DNA of 64,000 nt from Gimesia sp. (GTDB lineage: Bacteria > Planctomycetota > Planctomycetia > Planctomycetales > Planctomycetaceae), in contig NZ_JAVJSQ010000019.1 in the NCBI RefSeq assembly GCF_040219335.1, positions 62,001-126,000 on the forward strand, given 5' to 3'. Position 1 is the stretch's first letter. Each line of letters opens with the position of its first letter. Made by a program: the position numbers and the translations under genes. The notes under the pieces were generated by a model. That model saw nothing but the letters and a program-made list of their open reading frames with translations. It made no database searches and was not told the origin of the DNA. Positions 27,788 to 44,892 of the stretch are shown one piece after another.

Positions 27788-30700
27788 ATGAACGAACAGG
27801 AAATCTTTATTGCCGCACTGGAGATTGAAGATCTTCAGCAGCGGGCGGCTTACCTCGATCAGGTGTGCGGCGAAGATCGTCAGTTACGGGAACAGGTGGC
27901 TGCCTTGCTGAATGAGACGGAACAGTCAGGCGAATTTCTCGGTGTCCCTGTGCTGGAGCAGATGCGGCGGTCGAGCGAAGCAACACGCGTCCCGGGGGAA
28001 GATACGGGGGCTCAGCCTGGACTGGATGATCTCGACATCGGATTTCTACAGCCGGCGACGGAAGCTGGATCACTGGGAGTACTGGGGCACTATGATATTC
28101 AGGAGCTGATTGGCCGAGGGGGCTGTGGTATCGTCTTTAAGGCGTTTGACCAGCGCCTGCACCGGATCGTGGCTATCAAGGTGATGACCCCGGCCATGGC
28201 GGCGACTTCTCCGGCCCGCAAGCGGTTTTTGCGCGAGGCGCGGGCCACCGCAGCCATACGGCATGAGAATGTCGTTAATATTTACGCGGTCGAGGAAGCC
28301 CCCCTGCCCTTTCTGGTGATGGAATACATTGACGGTAAGACACTGCAACAGATGATTGATGACAATGGGCCGCTCGATCTGACTACCATCGTGAAGTATG
28401 GGCGGATGATCGCAGATGGTCTTGAAGCAGCGCATCTGCAGGGATTAATTCACCGGGATATTAAACCGGGGAATATCCTGATCGAGTCCGGAACGGGACG
28501 CGTCAAAATTACCGATTTTGGTCTGGCACGCGCTGCAGATGATGCGAGCCGGTCTCAGAGCGGTATCATCGCGGGTACGCCGCTGTATATGTCGCCCGAG
28601 CAGGTTCAAGGGCTCAAGCTGGACCGGAAGAGTGACCTGTTCAGCCTGGGGAGTGTTTTATATGTGATGTGTTCCGGACGCCCTCCTTTCCGCGCCCCGT
28701 CGACTCTGGCTGTGCTGAAGCGGGTCGTGGACGAGGAGCCCCGGAGTATCCAGGAAATCATTCCTGAAGTGCCGGACTGGCTGGTCGCCATCATTCGTCA
28801 ACTGCACGAAAAAGACCCCGATCATCGGTTCCAGTCTGCAGAGGATGTTGCTGAGCGGTTAGCCGGGGGGGCGGAAGCAGCAGTGCCGATGCGTCAAACC
28901 AGGGATGAATCGACTTCGGCAAAATCAAAAAAACTGAGGCAGAGTCGGTTATCGTGGATGCAGGCTGCGGCGATCCTGATCGTGCTGTTGTCGAGTTTTG
29001 GCTTTACCGAAGCAACCGGCATCACCCGCTTGCACAGTACTGTAATCCGCTATTTCTCACCCGAAGGGACTCTGGTGATTGAAGTCGAAGATCCTGGTGT
29101 GAGTGTTTCCATCGACGGACAGGAACTGGTAATCAAGGGGGCTGGAGTCGAAGAACTTCGACTGAAACCGGGACAGTATCAGTTCGAGGCTACAAAAGAC
29201 GGAGAAGTTCTGAAGAGGGAGCTGGTAACTGTTTCACGAGATGGCAGAAAAGTGATCCAGATAGACCAGCAACCTGCCCCGGTTGCCTCGAGCTCTGCTG
29301 ATAAGCCTTCGCCTGAGTTTACAGAGGAGAGCAAGCCCGTTGATCCGGATCGCCGTGCAGCAGAATATGTCCTCTCGACTGGCGGAAAAGTACGACTCAA
29401 CGATTTCAGCCGGCATGGAGAGAAGAAAAGTTTCACAACACTGAGTGAACTCCCAGCTACTCCCTTTCGGCTTACGCACGTTGAGTTGACTGACAATGCT
29501 CAACTTGATGACTCTGGGCTGGCTGCATTCCAGGGGACGGAGAACCTGCGATCTGTGGTATTTTCCGGTTCCCGTAACTTTACTGAGGTGGGGCTCGCTC
29601 ATTTAAGTAAAAACCTGGAATTACAGTGGGTTGATTTGTGGAGAACAAGCATCAATAAAACTGGTCTGGAACAACTCTCTCAATTTCCGGATCTCCGTGA
29701 TGTCAGGTTAGGGGAAACCAGTCTCACAGCCGATGACCTCGCGGTATTGAAACAATTCAAGAGTTTAAAAAAAATCGAACTGATCATGCTCAACCATACC
29801 GGAGCCGATGACAGTACACTTGCCATACTGTCTGCTGCGCCCCAACTGATTCAATTGAATCTGGAAGACACTAACGTTACTGATGCCGGTTTGGCTCACC
29901 TGGAGAAGAATCTGAAGCTCCAATACCTGTTTCTGAAGGGGACCAAGGTAACGAACGTGGGAGTTAGAAAACTGTCTCAGGCATTGCCGTGGTATAATCC
30001 CCGACCGGAAGAGCCGGATAAAAACAAAACCGTTTCAAAGTCGATGCCCTCCCAGGCAGATCTGAGCTCAGAGGACCCCGACCGACGCGCTGCGGAGTAT
30101 GTCCTCTTTATGGGTGGGCAGGTCTGGATTAACAAAGACTCCGCTTTCACAGATGGTAATGGCATCAAGACGCTCGACAGGCTACCCACAGAACCTTTTC
30201 GTTTGACACATGCGAAACTGATCGATAACGCTCGTGTAACCGATTCCGGCATGGAAGCGTTTCGGGGAACCAGGAACCTGCGCGGGATCTATCTTTCGAA
30301 TGCAACCCATGTCGGCGATAAGGGAATCCTGCACTTGAAAGAGAACACGCACCTGCACGAAATTCATCTCTGGGGTACGCAGGTGACGGGCGCGGGTTTA
30401 AAGGCTTTTGAAAACTGTGATGCCATCATCGATTTCTATTTCGGCTATACCCGGGTCTCGGATGCCGACATGGCCTTTTTTCGAGATTGTGCCAGCTGGA
30501 AATCATTACGCTGTATTATGGTCACTGGGCTGGGGATTACGGATCAGGGGATTGCTCATCTGGCAGGTACTCCCAGACTGGGGCAGATTCATATCGAACG
30601 AACGAAGATTACTGACGCTGGTCTGCTCCAGTTAGCGACATGTCCTAAACTGGGGCTTGTAGGGGCGCATGAAACGAAGATTACCAGCCAGGGAGTTGAG

Positions 30701-31666
30701 AAGTTTCTGCAGGCAAGAAAAGGGAAATGTGGCATTCTCTGGGAAGAGCCGGGGATGCCTCCCGAGAGTGAGGGGACGGTTGTAGCAAAAGAGCCTGCTC
30801 CCCTCAGTGTCGATGCTGGTTTTTCGCGTGTGTGGCGACTCACGAAACTGCAGCCCCGCAAGGCCGAATATGGATGGGATCCTGGTCCGCGGCGGGTTTT
30901 GGTGTCTCCAGAATTCGAACGCTGTGAAGAGTACCTGGTTATCGATCAGAACAGTTCCATTACATGGGAAATACCAGCAGGAACGAAAAGTATATCGGCA
31001 ACCGGCTTATACAATTTTGGGAGCTATGTTAATTTCCGCGTCGCGTTCGATGGAAAAGAAGCATTCTGCAGTGGGGTCACCCGTTTACAGAAAATTCTAT
31101 TGGATATTCCAGAAGGCAGCTCTACCATGATGCTTTCGGTGGGACGTGTGACTGATAATGCGGAACATATCGCTGCGTGCCCTGTGTACTGGTTGAAACC
31201 GCGGCTTTACAAAGAACCACTCAGTGCCACGCGAACCATCCCAGAGACAGAGGACTTCACAAAACTCTCGAAACTCACTCCGATTGCAGGTAAAGTGAAA
31301 ATCGCCCAGGATGGTTCCTCTCCACCGAAATCTGAAGAGCTGACAATTGAGCCACCCGGTTACGATTCCTTACCCGTTTGTACGGAGATGCTCTGGGCGC
31401 ATGCAAATACGTCGCTCTCCTATGAGATCCCTAAGGGAGCGAAACGGTTTCGCGCTGTCGCAGCGGCATACAGGAGTCGTTCGGTTCGGTTCCTGGTGCA
31501 GATTGATGGACGGGAAGTATACCGCAGTCCTGTCGCTGGAATTCTGCCAGTCGATGTGCCGATTCCTGAGGGGGCCAGGGAGATAACGTTGCTGACTGAT
31601 GACTGTGGTGATCAGCGGAATGACTGGGCTGACTGGTGTTATCCGCGATTTGTGGGGGAACGATAA
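27788..31666 (+). CDS. Large Ser/Thr protein kinase with leucine-rich repeats and C-terminal carbohydrate-binding-like modules
   Basis: 1292 residues. The Hanks-type kinase domain (about 100-360) has GRGGCGIVF, catalytic Lys131 in VAIKVM, HRDIKPGN at 222-229 and DFGLA at 243, so it should be active. A transmembrane helix follows at about 390-407, then a PEGA-like beta domain (VSVSIDGQELVI). The exported part holds two blocks of leucine-rich repeats (about 530-730 and 775-1000, such as ITDQGIAHLAGTPRLGQIHI), each introduced by DPDRRAAEYVL. Two NPCBM-like modules lie near 1030-1290, with a repeated ISYEIP/ITWEIP-like strand. The arrangement suggests sensing of an external ligand and signalling inside, perhaps through the adjacent ECF factor (inference). 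Confidence 0.88.
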   Translation: MNEQEIFIAALEIEDLQQRAAYLDQVCGEDRQLREQVAALLNETEQSGEFLGVPVLEQMRRSSEATRVPGEDTGAQPGLDDLDIGFLQPATEAGSLGVLGHYDIQELIGRGGCGIVFKAFDQRLHRIVAIKVMTPAMAATSPARKRFLREARATAAIRHENVVNIYAVEEAPLPFLVMEYIDGKTLQQMIDDNGPLDLTTIVKYGRMIADGLEAAHLQGLIHRDIKPGNILIESGTGRVKITDFGLARAADDASRSQSGIIAGTPLYMSPEQVQGLKLDRKSDLFSLGSVLYVMCSGRPPFRAPSTLAVLKRVVDEEPRSIQEIIPEVPDWLVAIIRQLHEKDPDHRFQSAEDVAERLAGGAEAAVPMRQTRDESTSAKSKKLRQSRLSWMQAAAILIVLLSSFGFTEATGITRLHSTVIRYFSPEGTLVIEVEDPGVSVSIDGQELVIKGAGVEELRLKPGQYQFEATKDGEVLKRELVTVSRDGRKVIQIDQQPAPVASSSADKPSPEFTEESKPVDPDRRAAEYVLSTGGKVRLNDFSRHGEKKSFTTLSELPATPFRLTHVELTDNAQLDDSGLAAFQGTENLRSVVFSGSRNFTEVGLAHLSKNLELQWVDLWRTSINKTGLEQLSQFPDLRDVRLGETSLTADDLAVLKQFKSLKKIELIMLNHTGADDSTLAILSAAPQLIQLNLEDTNVTDAGLAHLEKNLKLQYLFLKGTKVTNVGVRKLSQALPWYNPRPEEPDKNKTVSKSMPSQADLSSEDPDRRAAEYVLFMGGQVWINKDSAFTDGNGIKTLDRLPTEPFRLTHAKLIDNARVTDSGMEAFRGTRNLRGIYLSNATHVGDKGILHLKENTHLHEIHLWGTQVTGAGLKAFENCDAIIDFYFGYTRVSDADMAFFRDCASWKSLRCIMVTGLGITDQGIAHLAGTPRLGQIHIERTKITDAGLLQLATCPKLGLVGAHETKITSQGVEKFLQARKGKCGILWEEPGMPPESEGTVVAKEPAPLSVDAGFSRVWRLTKLQPRKAEYGWDPGPRRVLVSPEFERCEEYLVIDQNSSITWEIPAGTKSISATGLYNFGSYVNFRVAFDGKEAFCSGVTRLQKILLDIPEGSSTMMLSVGRVTDNAEHIAACPVYWLKPRLYKEPLSATRTIPETEDFTKLSKLTPIAGKVKIAQDGSSPPKSEELTIEPPGYDSLPVCTEMLWAHANTSLSYEIPKGAKRFRAVAAAYRSRSVRFLVQIDGREVYRSPVAGILPVDVPIPEGAREITLLTDDCGDQRNDWADWCYPRFVGER

Positions 31667-33749: not shown

Positions 33750-36086
33750 TCATTCCTCTCCAGCGGCTTCGTGCTGTGCTTCGTTGATGGCCCCTTCGAG
33801 GGTCGACTGGTCAAACGGTTTGTTGATCAGGCGATAACCTTTCTGGGAGAGGTTGTTCTTGAGCTTCTGGTCGGAATCATAGCCGGTACAGAAGACAACC
33901 GGCGGAGGATTGCCCAGGCGACAGATCTCGTCGTATGCTTCGGTGCCGGTCATGAGTGGCATGCACACATCGAATACCAGGCAATGAATATTGTCCCGCT
34001 CCTGACGATACATTTCCAGAGCCTCCCGACCGTTGTTAGCAGAAAAGACCTGGTAACCCAGGTTCTCAAGCATACGACAGGTGACCCGCATGACAATTGA
34101 ATCATCTTCCGCCACCAGAATGGATTTGAAGTTTGTGTTTTTCATATCGACCGAATCAGTCTGATTTCCATATTCAGGCTGATGATTGTCTGAAATGACA
34201 GGGATCAGCAATTCGAAGCGAGACCCCTGGCTGGAAAGGGATTCAAATTCGATGGACCCTCCGTGCTCCTGGGCCGTGGAATAGACCATGGAGAGCCCCA
34301 GCCCGGTTCCCTGCCCGACCTCTTTGGTGGTGAAAAAAGGATCAAAAATCCGATCCTGTAGGTACTCCGGGATTCCCAAACCGTTATCCTGGACATAAAA
34401 GCCAATGAAGGTTTTTTGTTGGCTCGTGATGAGCCGGTTGCCTATAGTGATGGTTCCTCCGGCAGGCATGGCATCACGGGAATTCATACAGAGATTGAGC
34501 AGTGACTGTCCCAGCAGGAGGGGGTTCGCGAGGATGGGGGGCAAGGTGCTGCTTAATTGATAGTCGACGTTAATATTCTCGGGGAGTAAGGGGCGGAGCA
34601 ATACTTTCAGATCTTCGATGATCGAGAGGGAATTACATTCATATTTTTCAACCTCGTCGATGCGACTGAATCGCAAAAGCTGGTTGGTTAATTGAGTCGC
34701 GCGACTGATGGCAGTCAAGCTTTGATTTAAATCGGTATGAGCCTGCGAATCGGGACTGATATCATCGCGGGCAAATGAAACAAACCCACCAATTGCCTGT
34801 AGCAGATTATTGAATTCGTGAGCGATGCCCCCTGCCAGTTCCCCAACGGCCTCCATGCGTCCTCTGTGCCGAACTTTAAGTTCATTTTGTCGTAACGTCT
34901 CTCGCGCCGTTTCCAGTTCCGTGATGTCGATTGAAATGATAAGTAATCCTGTTTCAGCATTATGCATTTTCAGGGGAACTTTACTCGTGTCTAATATCAT
35001 AGGCCTACCGTTTTTTGACACACTGGTCTCGATCTTGTGCATTACCGGATCGCCAGATTGCATAATTCGCTGATCTTCATCGATGTTTGATTCAGAATGA
35101 ATGCCTGTCAGCGATAAATTCAGATTTGAATTGCCGATAACATCTCGAGAGGAATCAAATCCCCAAAACTCAAGAAAACGATCATTACAGCCCAGGTAAT
35201 TGGAGTCAGCATCCTTCCAGGAGACGGCAAATGGAATGACATCCAGAATGGTCTGCAGCAGGTCGTTTCTTTCGTCCAGTAACCGTTGTGTACGTTTCTG
35301 TTCAGAAATATCCAGATGGACTCCCACCAGACGGGTGGGATTGCCGTCCGAATCGCGATCAACTACCTGCCCGCGGGCCATGGTCCAGCGGTAATGCTTC
35401 TCCTGGCAGAGAAGACGGTGTTCAGAAACAAAGGTGTCATGTTTTTCACGTGTAATGAGTGCCAACTGCTGCGTAAAGCTGTCGATATCATCGGGATGGA
35501 TGCGCTGTTCCCAGGTTTCGAGTTTATGCTCCAGGGAGCCAGGTCTGGCACCCACCAGGTTCTCCCAGCTCTCATGGAAATAGACTTCGTCTTCTATTGG
35601 ATTCCAGTCCCAACTGCCGACTTGCCCACCGGCAAACGCGAGCAGCAGCCGTTCTGAGTTTTCCTGTGCTCGACGATTGGCTTCAATCAACTGATTCTGA
35701 AATTCGATGCGGGAAGTGACATCGGTCTGGATCGCCAGAAAGCCAGTGTGCTCGTCTGCTTCGTAAAGAGGCATGCATTCGATGTAATTCCAGTACCCCG
35801 CACCCTGCTTTGTGTAATTAAAGATGGTGACCTCGAACGGTATGACAGTCTTGATAGCCGTTCGCATCGTCTTGATCGCCTCGGGATCACTTTTTTCACC
35901 CTGTAAGAGATCCCCCGGTTTTTTACCGACGACTTCTTTGAAACGGAAGCCAGTCATTCGTTCAAAACCTTTGTTGACCCAGGTCGTGATACCATGCTTG
36001 TCTGTAACGACCACTGCATTGATGGTTTTTTCCAGGACCTGTTTTAGCGCGTTGACGGTGATTGAATGATCTGATGGCAGTTTCAT
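33750..36086 (-). CDS. PAS-containing hybrid histidine kinase
   Basis: 778 residues: three PAS domains (about 15-125, 145-265, 275-385), a HisKA domain with H-box [15 protein letters not shown], HATPase ([27 protein letters not shown]) and a C-terminal receiver (ILVAEDD, phospho-Asp in [16 protein letters not shown]). No transmembrane segment is visible, so it is cytoplasmic and probably senses a bound ligand, redox state or light through PAS. It overlaps the preceding HDOD gene by 4 bases (ATGA), so the two are coupled in translation. Confidence 0.92.
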
Positions 36087-37894
36087 GTTTGCTCTGGACC
36101 TTCTTTTGTGAGTTGACCGATTACTGCTTCCAGTTCATCAGCGGATAATGGGGGAGTATGCAGGACTTCCGTCATTTTGTTGGTTTTTTCAATCGCGGTC
36201 AGGAAGACATCCTGGGAATCCATTCTCCCTTTTTGGTAATAATCAGATAACAGCTGATTCACCTTAAGAATTCGCTGGGGGACCGGTTGATCGCACATTT
36301 CTGCGAAGGCTTCCGCTACCCGCATACAGCGGACCAGTCCCTGTGTCATGATGGGCAGATTCATGTCGGTGTCATCCTGGTGATGCGCATAGACCGGTTG
36401 TAGAATCGAGAAGGGAAAACTCCAGGATTGCAGGACGGCTGCTGAAACCATGCCATGGTCGGTATTGGTGACCATGTTCTCGGAGGTGATAAACTGCAGG
36501 GTTGGTATGCTGCGAACCCGTTTGACGACACGTTCAAAGTAGGCTTCACCATAATGTTCAGCCAGTACCAGGATGCCGATGTCCTGCAGGATCCCCAGCA
36601 GGTAAGCCGTTTCCGGTGGCACAGAGTCATAGTACCGGGCGACCGATTCTGCAGTGGCGGCGATCAGCGAGGTGCGTTTGAGATACCAGTGACGGAATTC
36701 TTCCGCCCAGGGCTTCATCAGTTTGGAGTGAACCGTGCGCAGTCCCAGCGAAAGGCAGATGGCAATTGCCTGCCGGGGGCCCAGCAGGGTGACGATGCCT
36801 TTGAGATCTTTCTGTTTTGATGAGGCTGCAACTTGTGACGAATTGGCGACCTTGATCAGTTCGGAAGTCAATCGCGAGTCGGTTTCAATTTCACGGACCA
36901 GTTGTGGAATTGAAATTTCCAGTGAGGAGCGGGCAGCATGTTCAGCGAGCCTGGTGAGTACATGCGGAATGGGAGGCACATCACTGAATTCTGTGACCAG
37001 ACGACGGGCGGCGGGGTCAATCATCAGGCAATGGTGTGAGAGACGCGACATGAAACCGTAGGCCATGTTCAGAATTTCGGTTTCGTCGGTGTCCTCTTCG
37101 ATCGTCCTTTCCACTCCCTGGCAGTTATCGATGTTGAGTCGGTCGAGTGAATCTCGGGGGCCTCTCAGGAATGCAGGAATATTGATCAGGTCGGCGTGCA
37201 GGCGTTCGACAATCTGATTTCCCCTCAAGAAACCTGATAATTCCTGATCGATAATCAACAGGTCGACCCGTTTTTCATTCACAATTTCCAGCAGGTGATC
37301 GGTGCTGAGGGCGATGATTACATCCAGGGGCGATTCAGCCGAAGCCATTACAATCCGGTGACAGAACGACGTATCCGGACTCAGGACAACGACATTGTGC
37401 TTCGAGCCAGAGGGGGGGGAGGGAGTAGCGGCAGTTTGAACCGGTTTTGAGTCTTTTGTCTGAGCGGCCGCACCTCTTTCCAGGAGCTCCAGCATGTTCT
37501 CTGAAAATTCTTTGTAATCGACGGGTTTGCGATAGAGGTGTTTGACACCCCGCTTCCGCAGGTCTTCGTCAATTAAAGCTTGCATGATGCCGGTGAGCAC
37601 ACAGATCTCCGGTCGCTGATCCTGCCGTTGGATCAACTGCAGACACAAGGCGTGTCCATTCATTTGCGGCATTTTGAGATCGACGATCACCAGGTCATAA
37701 GTATGGCTCTGGCACATTTCCAGGGCAGCGATACCGTTTTCTGCCGTATCACAGCGAATGCCGACTTTGCTCAATGCCCGGGCCAGCAATTGCCGCAGAG
37801 ATGGTTCATCATCAACAATCAGGGCATGGTATTGAAAGGAATTTATGGCTAAATCCTCCGAAAGCTGAGTCTGTCGTGTGATCGGCAGACTCAC
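36083..37894 (-). CDS. Receiver-HDOD signalling protein
   Basis: 603 residues. An N-terminal receiver (ALIVDDEPSLRQLLA, phospho-Asp in VIVDLKMPQMNG) is followed by a second, receiver-like segment without the full set of acidic residues (VVVLSPDTSF, LLIIDQELSG). The HDOD domain, about 320-520, includes REIETDSRLTSELIKVANSS and VTLLGPRQAIAICLSLGL. HDOD proteins link signal inputs to output partners and are usually not active phosphohydrolases. It is the first gene of the pair with the hybrid kinase and likely its partner (inference from overlap). Confidence 0.88.
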   Translation of the reverse strand: MSLPITRQTQLSEDLAINSFQYHALIVDDEPSLRQLLARALSKVGIRCDTAENGIAALEMCQSHTYDLVIVDLKMPQMNGHALCLQLIQRQDQRPEICVLTGIMQALIDEDLRKRGVKHLYRKPVDYKEFSENMLELLERGAAAQTKDSKPVQTAATPSPPSGSKHNVVVLSPDTSFCHRIVMASAESPLDVIIALSTDHLLEIVNEKRVDLLIIDQELSGFLRGNQIVERLHADLINIPAFLRGPRDSLDRLNIDNCQGVERTIEEDTDETEILNMAYGFMSRLSHHCLMIDPAARRLVTEFSDVPPIPHVLTRLAEHAARSSLEISIPQLVREIETDSRLTSELIKVANSSQVAASSKQKDLKGIVTLLGPRQAIAICLSLGLRTVHSKLMKPWAEEFRHWYLKRTSLIAATAESVARYYDSVPPETAYLLGILQDIGILVLAEHYGEAYFERVVKRVRSIPTLQFITSENMVTNTDHGMVSAAVLQSWSFPFSILQPVYAHHQDDTDMNLPIMTQGLVRCMRVAEAFAEMCDQPVPQRILKVNQLLSDYYQKGRMDSQDVFLTAIEKTNKMTEVLHTPPLSADELEAVIGQLTKEGPEQT

Positions 37895-39549: not shown

Positions 39550-40119
39550 GACTGGTCCTGAGAATAGATGACGGGATTCAGAAAGGACAATGAATGTTAT
39601 TCTGGTCGTAGAATGTTCAGTTGTCAACAGGCTTGCCTTGAGTGCGTAATTCTTAAGTTGTCAGATATCATCGCGTCGATTCCCTGGGTTGCTCGTACTT
39701 GGTGAAAAATCGGAATCAAATAAGTGATCACTGCGTAAGTATGTCGCGGTGTGGCTTTATTGATTCCAAAACTCGAGATCTATCTAAGAGGTAGTCGTTA
39801 CTCAGGCTATCATGACAGTCTCAATGTGTCCTCTGTTTGATTTGTCTGTTTAAGCGGCATTTTGAGTGAATGCGAAAACGTACTCGGAATCGATGTGGTG
39901 ACTCGATGCTAATACCGATCCTGTATTGACAATCTGATTCTGAGACATAAACTCCAGTCGCGGTAAGTGTATCGGAACGGATTCCCTTCAAGCTCACTGA
40001 TAGCGAGAAAGCCGACAAGACGTCGCCGCTTACCTCGCTCGTCACAGGTCAGTGATCCGAAGAAACGATACGGAGTCGAAACCAGAAGGTTCGATTTCGA
40101 TCAGGAAAGGAACCCAAGA
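39550..40119. other. Intergenic region and long 5' leader of the csrA fusion gene
   Basis: A stretch of about 570 bases without a supported gene. The last 160 bases form the probable leader of the CsrA fusion gene, with five GGA triplets at 39974, 39979, 40072, 40104 and 40109, two in the ribosome binding site. GGA is the core of CsrA binding sites. Confidence 0.4.
39926..39953 (+). promoter_or_regulatory. Candidate sigma-70-type promoter of the csrA fusion gene
   Basis: TTGACA (39926-39931), a 16-base spacer and TAAACT (39948-39953). The -35 element is a perfect consensus match and the -10 is fair. Transcription from here would give a leader of about 160 bases before ATG 40120. Confidence 0.4.
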
Positions 40120-40875
40120 ATGCTCGTACTATCGAGACGTCCCGATCAGAAGATCGTGTTTCCCTCCATCGGTGTCACGATCAATGTGCTCAAGGTCCGA
40201 GGCGGAGTTGCCAAAATCGGCATTGATGCCCCGCGTGAACTGGAGATCTTGCGAGAAGAAGTCGCTACAAATCAAGGAAGCGCGACCTCGTCTGCTGACC
40301 GACCTTCCATGCTTGTCAATAAAAGTCAGCATGATCTGCGAAACCGGTTGAACACGGCGCGGCTGGCAGTCTATCTGGCCCAGTTACAGATTCATCAGGG
40401 TGATAACGCTGAGGCGGCTAAAACACTGGAAACCGTGGTGGAAGGCTTTAAAGAAGCCGAGAAAATCATGGCGGCGCAACGCTCACCCCAGAAATTGCGT
40501 GCCCTGCTGGTAGATGATGATCGCAACGAACGCGAGCTATTAGCGTCCTGTCTGAAATCGTTTGGCTATGATGTTGAGACCGCCGGCGATGGCGTTGAGG
40601 CACTCGAATACCTGCAGGAACACCAACTGCCGGATGTGGTTTTGCTGGATATGGCGATGCCTGTCTGCGATGGTCCCCTGGCGGTACGTCACATCCGCGA
40701 AACTCCCTGGATGCGAAACCTGAAAGTATTCGGCGTCAGTGGCGCTGATCCTCGTGAAGCCGGCGTAGCCATCGGTCCCGAAGGTGTGGATGGCTGGTTC
40801 AAGAAGCCGCTGGATCCCGCACGCATGATCGGGCAGATTCGCCAGGAAACGTTTGGTTCCATCACCACTGTTTAA
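40120..40875 (+). CDS. CsrA domain fused to an H-box (DHp-like) segment and a receiver domain
   Basis: 251 residues from ATG 40120 with AGGAAAGGA about 9 bases upstream. Residues 1-50 are CsrA: MLVLSRRPDQKI, IGVTINVLKVRGG, IGIDAPRELEILREEV. The RNA-contact residues L4, R6 and R45 (equivalent to R44) are kept. Residues about 65-120 (SQHDLRNRLNTARLAVYLAQ) resemble the H-box helix of a histidine kinase DHp domain, with His71, but no ATPase domain follows. Residues about 125-250 are a receiver: LLVDDDRNE, phospho-Asp in LLDMAMPVCDG, GVSG, and FKKPLDP. CsrA normally is a separate translational regulator of about 60 residues. Here binding of mRNA could be controlled by phosphorylation (inference). 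Its stop overlaps the convergent hybrid kinase by 4 bases. Confidence 0.88.
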   Translation: MLVLSRRPDQKIVFPSIGVTINVLKVRGGVAKIGIDAPRELEILREEVATNQGSATSSADRPSMLVNKSQHDLRNRLNTARLAVYLAQLQIHQGDNAEAAKTLETVVEGFKEAEKIMAAQRSPQKLRALLVDDDRNERELLASCLKSFGYDVETAGDGVEALEYLQEHQLPDVVLLDMAMPVCDGPLAVRHIRETPWMRNLKVFGVSGADPREAGVAIGPEGVDGWFKKPLDPARMIGQIRQETFGSITTV

Positions 40876-43800
40876 TCGTCCGATTGCTTCAGTAAGGACA
40901 ACAGTCGGTCCAGATCCAGTGGTTTGACCAGGTACTCATCGAACCCCGCCTCTTTTGCACGCTCGATGTCTTCGGGTTGACCATAGCCCGTCAGCGCGAT
41001 CAGAAACAGGTCGCTTCCCTGTTCGGATCGTAGGGTGCGGGCAACTTCATTACCGTTGAGTTCGGGGAGACCCAGGTCGATCACCGCTGCATCGGGATCG
41101 GTATTTCGAATGAGCTGGAGACCTGTTTTACCGTTCTCCGCGGTACTCACGTCGAAACCTTCCATACTCAGCAAGGCATTCAGCATTTCGCGGTTATCCT
41201 GCTGGTCTTCGATGACGACGACACTGCGGATCTGCTTCCGTGCCTGTTTATGATGAGAGTGGTTGGGGGCTTTGCCATTCCCTTCTGAAGCTTTGGGTTT
41301 GCCGTTGCCTCCATTGGATGATGCATCAATCTGGCTGAGATCCTGTTGCTCCAGCAATGGCAGGCGAATCGAGAAGACACTGCCCCGATTGATGCCTTTG
41401 CTTTTGACCTGGATGTCACCATCGTGCCCATCGATGATGAATTTGACCAGGGAGAGGCCGACGCCCATGCCGCCATCCTGATCGTCATGAGTACGATGCG
41501 ACTGGACGAACGGTTCAAAGATGGTTTCCATCATCTCGGTCGAGATCCCTTTACCGTTATCTTTTAATTCCAGAACGGCGCCGTCCGGCTCCCTGCGGAC
41601 ATTCATCCGAATGACATCGCCCCGAAATGAGTATTTAACTGCATTGTCGAGTAAATTCACGACGACCTGCCTTAAGCGGTCTTCATCCCCATAGAGGTTC
41701 AGCGGATCGTCTGTGATATTCAGTTCCAGTTCCTGGTCCTGCTGCTTGATGGAAGGCAGCATTGAATCGATGGCTTCCTGCAGGGGATCATGCAGATCAA
41801 ATTTCTTCTTGCGGAGTTCCAGTTTGTCCTGGGTCATGCGCGAAATATTCAGCAGGTCATCCAGCAGGCGTGCCATGTGAGCGGCCTGTCTCTGGATGAC
41901 GGTAACCGCTTTCTGCGATTCTTCAGTTTCGCTGATGCGGTTGTTCAATAATCGAGACGCACTGAAGACGGCACTGATGGGGTTGCGCAGTTCGTGGGAC
42001 AGCATGGCCAGGAACTGCTCGCGATTTTTGACAGCCGCGGCCAGTGAGTCCTGTGTCCGTTTCAGAGTATTAATGTCGATGAGAGTCAGTACAACGCCCT
42101 TCAGATCCCGCTTAGAGCGGTAAGGCAGGACGCGGAGATACATCCAGCGTCCCTCATCATCCTGGACTTCTTCTTCGATCGCTTCTCCTGTATGCAATAC
42201 ATTTCGAATCTCTTTGATTAAACCGGGGCGGTCAATGTGATGGGCGAAGCTGTCGATGCAGCGGCCCATGTCGTGCGACATCAGTTTGAAAATGGGCCCA
42301 ATCTGAGGCGTAAATTTCCGAATGCAGAGGTTTTCGTCCAGGAAGACGGTCGCGACATCGGTACTTTCCATCAGACTGTCCAGGTCGGAGGTCATATCCG
42401 TCAGGTCATTGATCTTGTTCTGATACTCAGCATTAACGGTATAGAGTTCTTCGTTGACCGAATGGAGCTCTTCGTTTGTGCTCTGTAACTCTTCGTTCGA
42501 GGCAATCAATTCTTCGTTCGCTGCCTGCAGCTCTTCGTTGGATGTCTCCAGCTCTTCGACAGTGGCCTGCAGGCTTTCCTTGGTGTGCTGCAGTTCGGTT
42601 TCCAGAGTCTTGATGCGTTCCCGGGCGATGCGCTCTGAACTGAAATCTTTCATATGAGTGTCTGTTTTGCGGCCGGTATCCGAATTTCCTTCACTCATCG
42701 GTTCAAACATGATCAACAGCTGCTGCTGCGAGGCGTGTTTGTTTTCGACAGGCTCGATGGAGACACGATACAGGCCCTCTGCATTTCCGGAGTCGACGCG
42801 CATACCGCTATAACAGACGGGGACCTGATCTTTGCTGATGCTCTGCATGGCTGCCAGCAGCGCCGTACGGAGATCGTCTGTGAACAGATCGAGCGCATCT
42901 TTACTCGGACGGCCTTTGCGGATCTTCATGAATTTCTCCGCGTCGCCGAATACGTGCAGCAGTTCGCGTGATTCGTCAATCAGGACGGCAGCCGGCATAT
43001 GATGCGCGAGGACCCAGTCGTAGGCGCCCAGCAGGCTGATATCCATCAGTTCGCGTTTCTTGGTGGCGGGCTGCCTGGTTTCTTCAACTTTTGTCGAGGT
43101 CAGGCTGGTATGGGTCAACGGGCCCCGGATATCCGCGGGCAGACGGATATCACGGCGTTTGTGGTATAGCTTCCAGTGTCCATCAATCACTTCGAATTCA
43201 TCCGCCAGTTCCCCGGGGGATTCACTGGGTCCCAGCATGAGAATACCGTTGGCTTTGAGGCCAAAATGGAACAGGGACAGAGCCCGTTTCTGCGCCCGGT
43301 TCTGGAAGTAGATCAGCAGGTTGCGGCAGGATATGAGATCCAGCTTCGTAAAGGGAGCATCTTTTAACACGTTATGGGGCGCGAAGACGATCATTTTACG
43401 CAGGTCCGGATCGACAGAGTAACCCTTCTGTGTTTTATTGAAGTAGCGTTTCAGACGTCTGTCGGAAACTTCCTTGAAGGCGTCTTCTTCATAGTTACCC
43501 GCACTGGCAAACTCGAGTGAGGCTTTATGTGCATCGGTGGCAAAGATCTTGATGTTGATGGGGCGGTTGCGTTCTTCGAGCTGTTCATGAAATAGAATCG
43601 CGATGGAATAAGCTTCCTCCCCGGTTGCGCAGGCTGCGATCCAGATGCGGATTTCTTCTTCAGGGGGGATGCTGTCAAGCAGATTGGGAATGATCTTCTT
43701 TTCCAGAATCGAGAACGCTTCCGGATCGCGGAAGAAACGGGTGACGCCGATCAGCAGGTCCATGTAAAGCGAATTCAGTTCCTGGGAATTCTCCCGCAGC

Positions 43801-44615
43801 TGTTCTGCATAGTCATTAATCGAATCGACCTGCTGCATCAGTAGACGACGCTGGATTCTCCGGCCGACGGTGCTGGACTTGTAATGGGAAAAATCGATGC
43901 CGTATTCCTGGTTCAGGAGCCCGAAGATCAGTTCGACTCCTTCGTCCAGCGGCTTTTCCTCAACCTGATTGGAAGTCAGGGAGTTACTGTGAAAGGTGAT
44001 ATGCTTCTCAATGGCACCGGCTATTTCTCGCGGTTTCAGGACCAGATCCACCAGTCCCGTTTCTCGTGCCGACTGGGGCATTCCATCAAATTTTGCGGTT
44101 TCATTACTCTCACAGATTACAAGTCCGCCTGCGTCGTGAACGTCACGAATGCCACGCGAACCATCACTGCCACTGCCCGAGAGCACGACCGCGATCGACC
44201 GGGAGCCTGCTTCTTGAGCCAGTGAGCGGAAAAAATAATCAATGGGCAGCGTCAGGGTTTCTTTGGGATCTTTATCTCGCAGACGAAAGCGTCCATCGGA
44301 GAGGATCGCCTCTTTCTTAGGAGGGATCAGAAAAATCCGATTGGGAGAGATCGGCAGTCCATCTTCCGACTGTTGGATGGGGATATCAGTCCGTCGCGCC
44401 AGGAGCTCATCCATGACGCTTTTGAAATCGGGGGACAGGTGCTGCACCACGACAAATGCGATGCCGCTGTCGACGGGAACCTTGGCGAACAGCTCTTCCA
44501 GGGATTCCAGTCCACCTGCTGACGCACCGACGCCGACGATCGGAAAACTGCTCGGTTCATCGTCCTCATCTGAATTACGATTGGTTTCACCCAGCTTAGC
44601 CTTATCGCTGTTCAT
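40872..44615 (-). CDS. CheB-CheR-PAS-histidine kinase-receiver hybrid
   Basis: About 1247 residues. The N-terminal CheB methylesterase domain (about 25-200) has [13 protein letters not shown] and [13 protein letters not shown]. The CheR methyltransferase domain (about 215-480) has [24 protein letters not shown] and [12 protein letters not shown] long heptad-rich coiled coil (about 645-720, repeated NEEL) precedes PAS, HisKA ([13 protein letters not shown]), HATPase ([19 protein letters not shown]) and a receiver ([21 protein letters not shown]). Such fusions are cytoplasmic sensors that may use reversible methylation. ATG 44615 with AAGGA upstream is preferred to the frame start at 44648. It is convergent with the CsrA fusion gene, and the two stop codons overlap at TTAA. 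Confidence 0.9.
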
Positions 44616-44892
44616 CGTTGAATGTCCTTTTCTCAGATTGCGCTGCATCAGCCTGCGATCATTTTGACGCGCTTACAAACTTCTCTGTTTGCCACTCCCA
44701 AAAGCGAACGGCATGCCAGTCATGATCACAGAGTGTCGTTCGTGTCGTAAGTGACTGCTGAGTAATGATATGCGATGAAAGGTGATAGGCAGTAAACCAG
44801 CAAAAGAGGCAATGAAATGGCTGCCAATCGATCAGTACGGCGGCTGATAATACGGCTTTGTGTAGCCTGTTCATCAGAATGTGCAGTCCTGA

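Follow-up and report, generated by a model that had tools for sequence, protein, structure and literature searches.

A stretch of 64,000 nucleotides of Gimesia sp. DNA (contig NZ_JAVJSQ010000019.1, positions 62,001 to 126,000; hereafter the window) was found to carry a gene that joins three modules in one protein of 251 residues: a CsrA RNA-binding domain, a helical hairpin resembling the dimerization and histidine phosphotransfer (DHp) domain of histidine kinases, and a receiver domain. The gene, the order of its domains, the conservation of its catalytic residues, the DHp-like register of His71 in the hairpin and the linkage to hybrid kinases were all observed. On balance we favour the view that the fusion is the output protein of a phosphorelay acting on RNA, in which phosphate would pass from a hybrid kinase to His71, then to Asp177 of the receiver, and so act on the CsrA domain. 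In planctomycetes that carry the fusion, phosphorylation probably acts as a direct switch on an mRNA-binding protein. Dimerization, the path of the phosphate, binding to RNA and the direction of the effect are putative parts of this scheme.

Architecture of the fusion protein

The gene, its parts and the neighbouring kinase are as follows.

40120–40875, forward strand: gene for the CsrA–DHp-like hairpin–receiver fusion, 251 amino acids (open reading frame calls, Pfam, starts of homologues)
40120–40269, forward strand: CsrA domain, residues 1–50, with L4, R6 and R45 kept (Pfam, conservation)
40270–40305, forward strand: variable linker, residues 51–62 (low model confidence, high column entropy)
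40306–40479, forward strand: DHp-like helical hairpin, residues 63–120, with helices 63–92 and 96–120 (AlphaFold2, HisKA profile match, structural register)
40330–40344, forward strand: H-box core, His71 to Asn75, H-x-x-x-N (conservation)
40495–40845, forward strand: receiver domain, residues 126–242
40648–40650, forward strand: phospho-acceptor Asp177 (conservation)
40872–44648, reverse strand: CheB-CheR-PAS-HisKA-HATPase-REC hybrid kinase, 1258 amino acids, likely phosphate donor (Pfam, conserved linkage)

The reading frame at 40120–40875 is free of frameshifts and ends at an in-frame stop; the opposite strand over the same positions is interrupted by stops. Upstream of 40120 the frame stays open to a GTG at 39967, and a version of 302 residues is possible. 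The ATG at 40120 is the start position in most homologues and is preceded by an AGGA-type ribosome-binding site.

Conservation was assessed in two sets. The first is a MAFFT alignment of 121 sequences, made up of the query, the database cluster to which it belongs (P0002) and 119 further proteins; the second comprises 93 fusion loci in 85 genomes that represent 55 genera and 9 families, the window's locus included. Residues 1–50 match the CsrA family PF02599 (E 2.8e-15; 56.4 bits against a cut-off of 27), as an earlier reading of the letters alone (the sequence-only reading) had proposed in placing CsrA at the N-terminus of a 251-residue protein. The same reading held that L4, R6 and R45 are kept, and they are conserved in 119, 120 and 121 of the 121 proteins, respectively. 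Among the genome copies R6 and R45 are each present in 93/93, and position 4 is Leu in 82/93. We take L4, R6 and R44 of Escherichia coli CsrA to be RNA-contact positions, and R45 to be the counterpart of R44. The domain keeps a subfamily-specific signature of its own (F14, P15 and G18), and it does not reach the NCBIfam CsrA equivalog cut-offs, with 41.8 against 73 bits for NF002469 and 38.6 against 70.1 bits for TIGR00202. Judged by the conserved contact residues, the CsrA domain of the fusion probably still binds RNA. Two or more GGA triplets lie within 25 nucleotides upstream of the fusion start at 52 of the 93 loci; because GGA is part of the Shine–Dalgarno sequence itself, these counts allow no conclusion on autoregulation.

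The CsrA domain is followed by a linker of low predicted order and little conservation: the predicted local distance difference test score (pLDDT) of the AlphaFold2 model is below 50 at residues 46–61, and columns 51–64 have a mean entropy of 3.50 bits, none falling below 0.3 bit.

At the C-terminus, residues 129–240 match Response_reg, PF00072 (E 8.8e-20; 71.4 bits against a cut-off of 30.2), and the 50 matches listed in a structure search with the full model are receivers. The active site is intact, with D133 in 120/121 proteins, D177 in 121/121 (and in 93/93 genome copies), Ser or Thr at 207 in 121 (117 Ser, 4 Thr) and K229 in 120/121, in agreement with the Asp, Ser and Lys named in the sequence-only reading. 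Residue 226 (40795–40797), three before the Lys, is by comparison with CheY presumably the Tyr/Phe switch position; it is Trp instead in 93/93 genome copies and, being aromatic, is regarded as a variant of the switch residue. An excerpt of PMC9981736 treats the intermediate and terminal receivers of relays as distinct; the fusion receiver has an intact active site, yet Trp at the switch position.

Distribution of the family

At E ≤0.001, a search of protein sequences gave 1576 matches. Among the best 120 of these, 119 are annotated with both PF02599 and PF00072 and are 239–319 residues long; the exception, P0042 (210 residues), is a record without most of the CsrA domain. The few organisms named by the sources among the best 120 are Planctomycetales, Planctomycetaceae, Pirellulaceae, Gemmataceae and Isosphaera, and one listed protein is given as Saccharimonas by one source and as Planctomycetaceae by another. 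The names point to Planctomycetia as the window's class.

With a CsrA-hairpin profile (E 1e-26, matches reaching profile position 101 or beyond of 125), the fusion turned up in 84 of the 397 genomes that made up a sample of the class, a lower bound since only 11 candidates were scored per genome. In a sample of the phylum it occurred in 14/392 genomes at E 1e-20, all within the window's class, and in another phylum sample, searched with the full-length profile, in 11/294, again all in the class. In a scan of genome contigs, L001 was the one full-length relative, and two other matches covered the receiver only. Far from being an isolated oddity, the CsrA-hairpin-receiver protein represents a family that spans the class, and both its architecture and its existence as a family are near certain. 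The sequence-only reading had suggested looking for the same domain order in other planctomycetes, where it is now found, and had named a missing CsrA or receiver match, or a frameshift between them, as fatal to its proposal; both profiles are matched and the frame is intact.

The hairpin and His71

Both H71 and N75 are present in 121/121 aligned proteins, and in 91/93 and 88/93 genome copies, respectively. They are the only two of the 56 hairpin columns (65–120) with an entropy below 0.3 bit, at a median pairwise identity of 48%, which indicates chemistry rather than packing. The two genome copies that lack H71 are one of the two copies of L147 and the distant L171. The two fusion genes of L147 lie within one 18.5-kb stretch and, one of them being without the H-box histidine, offer a natural test of the role of His71.

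A hairpin profile built from 46 sequences was compared by hhalign with 20 of the 38 HisKA domains detected in the window's genome. It matched with a probability of 93.7, a score of 35.0 and P 2e-7. The best of 200 column shuffles scored 18.3 and the reversed profile 7.7, so that none of the shuffles reached the real score. When the H-box was kept and the rest shuffled, again 0/200 reached it (maximum 31.9), indicating that helix 1 adds to the HisKA match. As single sequences, 21 of the 46 family hairpins match HisKA in Pfam at E up to 5, the best at 4.4e-5. At the same threshold the fusion protein has neither a HATPase match nor a match to the histidine phosphotransfer domain Hpt (PF01627), and none of the 8 Hpt matches in the window's genome is the fusion.

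AlphaFold2, run on the monomer only, gives a pLDDT of 85–97 over residues 71–120 in the full model and a mean of 92.4 for the hairpin modelled alone. In the VIA comparison, residues 1–61 of the hairpin model lie on residues 251–311 of HK853 (4jav) and place His71 (model residue 10) on H260; since 61 residues are aligned over these spans, the alignment is gapless. On DesK 179–239 (3ehf), 60 residues are aligned over model residues 1–61 and His71 falls on H188, as judged from the ends. The spacing from the histidine to the turn and the helical hairpin of the predicted model agree with those of a DHp domain. The hairpin alone has no Foldseek match at E 0.001, and bacterioferritins head the Foldseek list as rubrerythrins head that of VIA. 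The fold in itself is no evidence, and only the register of the histidine was used. Taken together, the profile match, the register and the absence of an ATPase domain agree with the sequence-only reading, in which the segment around His71 resembled an H-box. We consider it fairly likely that His71 is a relay histidine.

Other origins of the hairpin were tried. A tetratricopeptide repeat (TPR) gives a weak TPR_12 match in the window protein (E 7e-4; 20.2 bits against a cut-off of 30.1) and TPR_19 matches in 10/46 members; it was rejected because it leaves H71 and N75 unexplained and because fewer members match than for HisKA. SPOB_a (PF14689), the origin first expected, matches weakly in 4/46 members (best E 0.003) and was not adopted; in the class it was found in 3/297 genomes, none over the cut-off. 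A profile search of the PDB with the hairpin was dominated by TPR proteins and designed proteins, with a single BarA entry (E 0.92), and was not used. A search with residues 60–125 alone returned only the query's own cluster; with 4 candidates, it is uninformative on hairpins without CsrA.

Linkage to hybrid kinases

In the window, the fusion gene is convergent with the gene for the CheB-CheR hybrid kinase, and their 3′ ends overlap by 4 bp. The same kind of kinase lies within 1 kb of the fusion gene at 45 of the 93 loci: upstream on the same strand at 26, convergent at 16 and divergent at 3. The neighbouring hybrid kinase put forward as a partner in the sequence-only reading is thus a conserved neighbour. 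Any histidine kinase is found within 1 kb at 64/93 loci and any hybrid kinase at 61/93. The domains of neighbours were called by profiles built from the window's own kinases, with Pfam used for only some of the proteins. When only loci flanked by 4 kb or more on each side were counted, the figures were 36/72 for CheB-CheR hybrids and 50/72 for any histidine kinase; with an 800-bp limit, the 77 of 92 loci in which the fusion frame was called gave 39/77 and 53/77, respectively. A CheB-CheR neighbour occurs in 31/55 genera and 7/9 families, and any kinase neighbour in 38/55 genera.

Such kinases are scarce. The window's genome has three CheB matches, of which two are on short open reading frames (353 and 376 amino acids) and the third is the neighbour of the fusion, which is the single CheB-CheR hybrid kinase of this genome. 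In 13 genomes, CheB matches numbered 0 to 6 per genome, with chemotaxis CheB counted. A rough chance model of 5 such genes per 6.5 Mb predicts the linkage at about 0.5% of loci, the loci not being independent. The occurrence of three arrangements over many genera argues for selection of the linkage. As a control, stand-alone csrA loci of the window's genome were inspected (8 of 13); none had a histidine kinase within 1.5 kb, and 2/8 had a receiver open reading frame. We hold with good confidence that the fusion is the response regulator of the neighbouring hybrid kinase.

Kinases close to the fusion are enriched for receivers: 64 of the 68 within 1 kb carry one, as against 18 of 25 HisKA kinases examined in the window's genome (Fisher p 0.007). 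None of five CheB-CheR hybrids scanned (the window's neighbour, L089, L097, L091 and L085) has a Pfam match to Hpt at E 1e-4. A relay through hybrids that lack Hpt needs a histidine supplied from elsewhere. At L083 and L093, additional CheB-CheR open reading frames in which no ATPase was detected lie in the same stretch as the fusion, which suggests larger CheB/CheR clusters.

Proposed phosphorelay and alternatives

The proposed relay is the simplest reading. It would start from a hybrid kinase, in the typical case the CheB-CheR-PAS-HisKA-HATPase-REC protein next door, which would autophosphorylate its own histidine and pass the phosphate to its own C-terminal receiver. A kinase that ends in its own receiver needs a histidine to pass the phosphate on. 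His71 may take it from the kinase receiver, acting as a DHp-type phosphotransferase like ChpT and Spo0B, and would hand it to Asp177 of the fused receiver, in the same chain or across a dimer; CsrA domains are dimeric in the known CsrA structures. Phosphorylation of the receiver would alter how the CsrA domains sit on GGA-containing mRNA leaders, and the translation or stability of target mRNAs would follow the signal. Phosphorelay control of translation or mRNA stability through an RNA-binding module had been suggested in the sequence-only reading too; the transfer of phosphate, the binding of RNA and the effects on mRNA stay presumptive here.

Three observations weigh against this relay. The residue after His71 (H+1) is Asp in 35 and Glu in 21 of the 121 proteins, an acid thus being present in 56 and missing in 65; that half of the family lacks it is in keeping with a histidine to which ATP no longer supplies the phosphate. 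The window protein's own hairpin has no HisKA match in Pfam. Finally, 4 of the 68 nearby kinases have no receiver.

These kinases without a receiver suit a one-step regulator, in which Asp177 would receive phosphate straight from the DHp domain of the kinase, and the hairpin would be a degenerate DHp serving only as a dimer clamp that couples the receiver to CsrA. The unconserved acid at H+1 suits it as well, and the role of dimer clamp is an obvious one for a DHp-like hairpin placed between two domains, CsrA itself also being a dimer. A pure clamp, however, leaves H71 and N75 unexplained as the lone low-entropy columns of the hairpin, and the other 64 nearby kinases are hybrids. We regard the one-step regulator as unlikely, although it is the strongest of the alternatives.

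Alternatively, His71 and Asn75 might form a built-in phosphatase or timer that strips phosphate from Asp177 and sets the lifetime of the RNA-binding state. Asn at H+4, which we take to be the position of the HisKA phosphatase motif in bifunctional kinases, is invariant in the alignment (121/121) while the H+1 acid varies, and no ATPase match was seen in the protein. With the end of helix 2 at 120 and the first receiver strand beginning at 126, His71 should lie, in the predicted model, at the receiver-proximal end of the hairpin. The phosphatase motif as we know it usually has the H+1 acid, however, which 65/121 proteins lack, and a phosphatase does not require a hybrid kinase, yet hybrids predominate among the neighbours. 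A phosphatase is less probable still.

It is improbable that the CsrA fold has become a protein-binding or dimer module and lost RNA binding: its own signature and its scores below the NCBIfam cut-offs would fit, but the presumed contact residues are kept almost without exception (R45 in 121/121 and R6 in 120/121 proteins, both in 93/93 genome copies). An artefact in which annotation or assembly error joined two adjacent genes is already refuted, as both domains occur in 119 of the best 120 listed proteins (the query's cluster among them) and one open frame spans both at 93 loci in 85 genomes, with the receiver Asp in all.

Comparison with known systems

CsrA is a global post-transcriptional regulator. 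CsrA/RsmA proteins normally stand alone at about 60 residues, and their known controls are indirect, through sequestering small RNAs that act as decoys or through FliW (PMC4682653). The fusion resembles them in its profile match and in keeping L4, R6 and the equivalent of E. coli R44; it differs in the added hairpin and receiver and in scoring below the NCBIfam cut-offs.

Among two-component systems, the ANTAR regulators (AmiR/NasR, EutV and PdtaR) likewise have an RNA-binding output, according to excerpts of PMC3369931 and PMC12471899. They act by antitermination through another output domain, whereas the fusion has CsrA before the receiver and a phospho-His-type hairpin between the two. As for the hairpin, ChpT and Spo0B also have a helical hairpin with an H-box histidine and no autokinase activity; an excerpt of PMC3433190 describes a ChpT hairpin at 20–83 with His33, which forms a four-helix bundle by dimerization, and a Spo0B bundle also made of two hairpins. 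ChpT differs in its C-terminal atypical ATP-binding fold and its separate regulator, whereas the fusion holds the terminal receiver and the RNA-binding output in the same chain. In PhyT, a conserved His relays phosphate from the receiver protein SdrG to the regulator PhyR (PMC5898713, in excerpt); PhyT, in contrast, is bound to the membrane and is a protein apart from its regulator, whose target is a sigma factor.

Among the matches listed, no open-access title or start of an abstract described a CsrA-receiver protein, which is weak evidence of absence; the architecture is already visible in databases as precomputed Pfam domains. Excerpts from the literature on planctomycetes propose FliW control of CsrA there, among other groups (PMC4682653); CsrA in planctomycetes is also mentioned in PMC10729762. 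In a 2025 review (PMC12471899) even the CsrA of E. coli is classed among orphan response regulators, a label that fits poorly because CsrA has no receiver.

If the relay holds, direct phosphorylation of CsrA would give a sensor a short path to mRNA, and ANTAR would no longer be the only type of response regulator that binds RNA. The fusion is a likely output for CheB-CheR hybrid kinases and a testable entry to post-transcriptional control in planctomycetes. The chances are about even that it represents a new class of response regulator, in which His-Asp-His-Asp relays across the bacterial class would run from CheB-CheR hybrids straight onto mRNA, with His71, Asp177 and CsrA in one polypeptide and CsrA set by phosphorylation and not only by small RNAs or FliW.

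Other features of the window and genome

The window's genome (G000) has 14 CsrA matches over the Pfam cut-off, to our knowledge an unusual number of paralogues for one genome. Five of the other csrA genes were read, of 8 inspected, and encode short, stand-alone CsrA-like proteins of 66–81 residues.

According to an excerpt of PMC12316311, the predicted sigma-54 targets of Planctomycetia are enriched for COG1551, the csrA-type genes, and in Pirellula strain 1 csrA carries a sigma-54 promoter. No sigma-54 match with two or fewer mismatches was seen ahead of the fusion gene. A sigma-54-like site with 2 mismatches lies at 44703–44718 on the reverse strand, 55 bp upstream of where the CheB-CheR kinase gene starts; the window holds 9 such sites, with 10.65 expected by chance.

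A second two-component pair lies 2–6 kb from the fusion, at 33750–37894 on the reverse strand, and consists of a PAS-HisKA-HATPase-REC hybrid kinase and a REC-HDOD protein that overlap by 4 bp. Elsewhere in the window, 27788–31666 on the forward strand encodes a Ser/Thr protein kinase of 1292 residues with leucine-rich repeats and an NPCBM domain.
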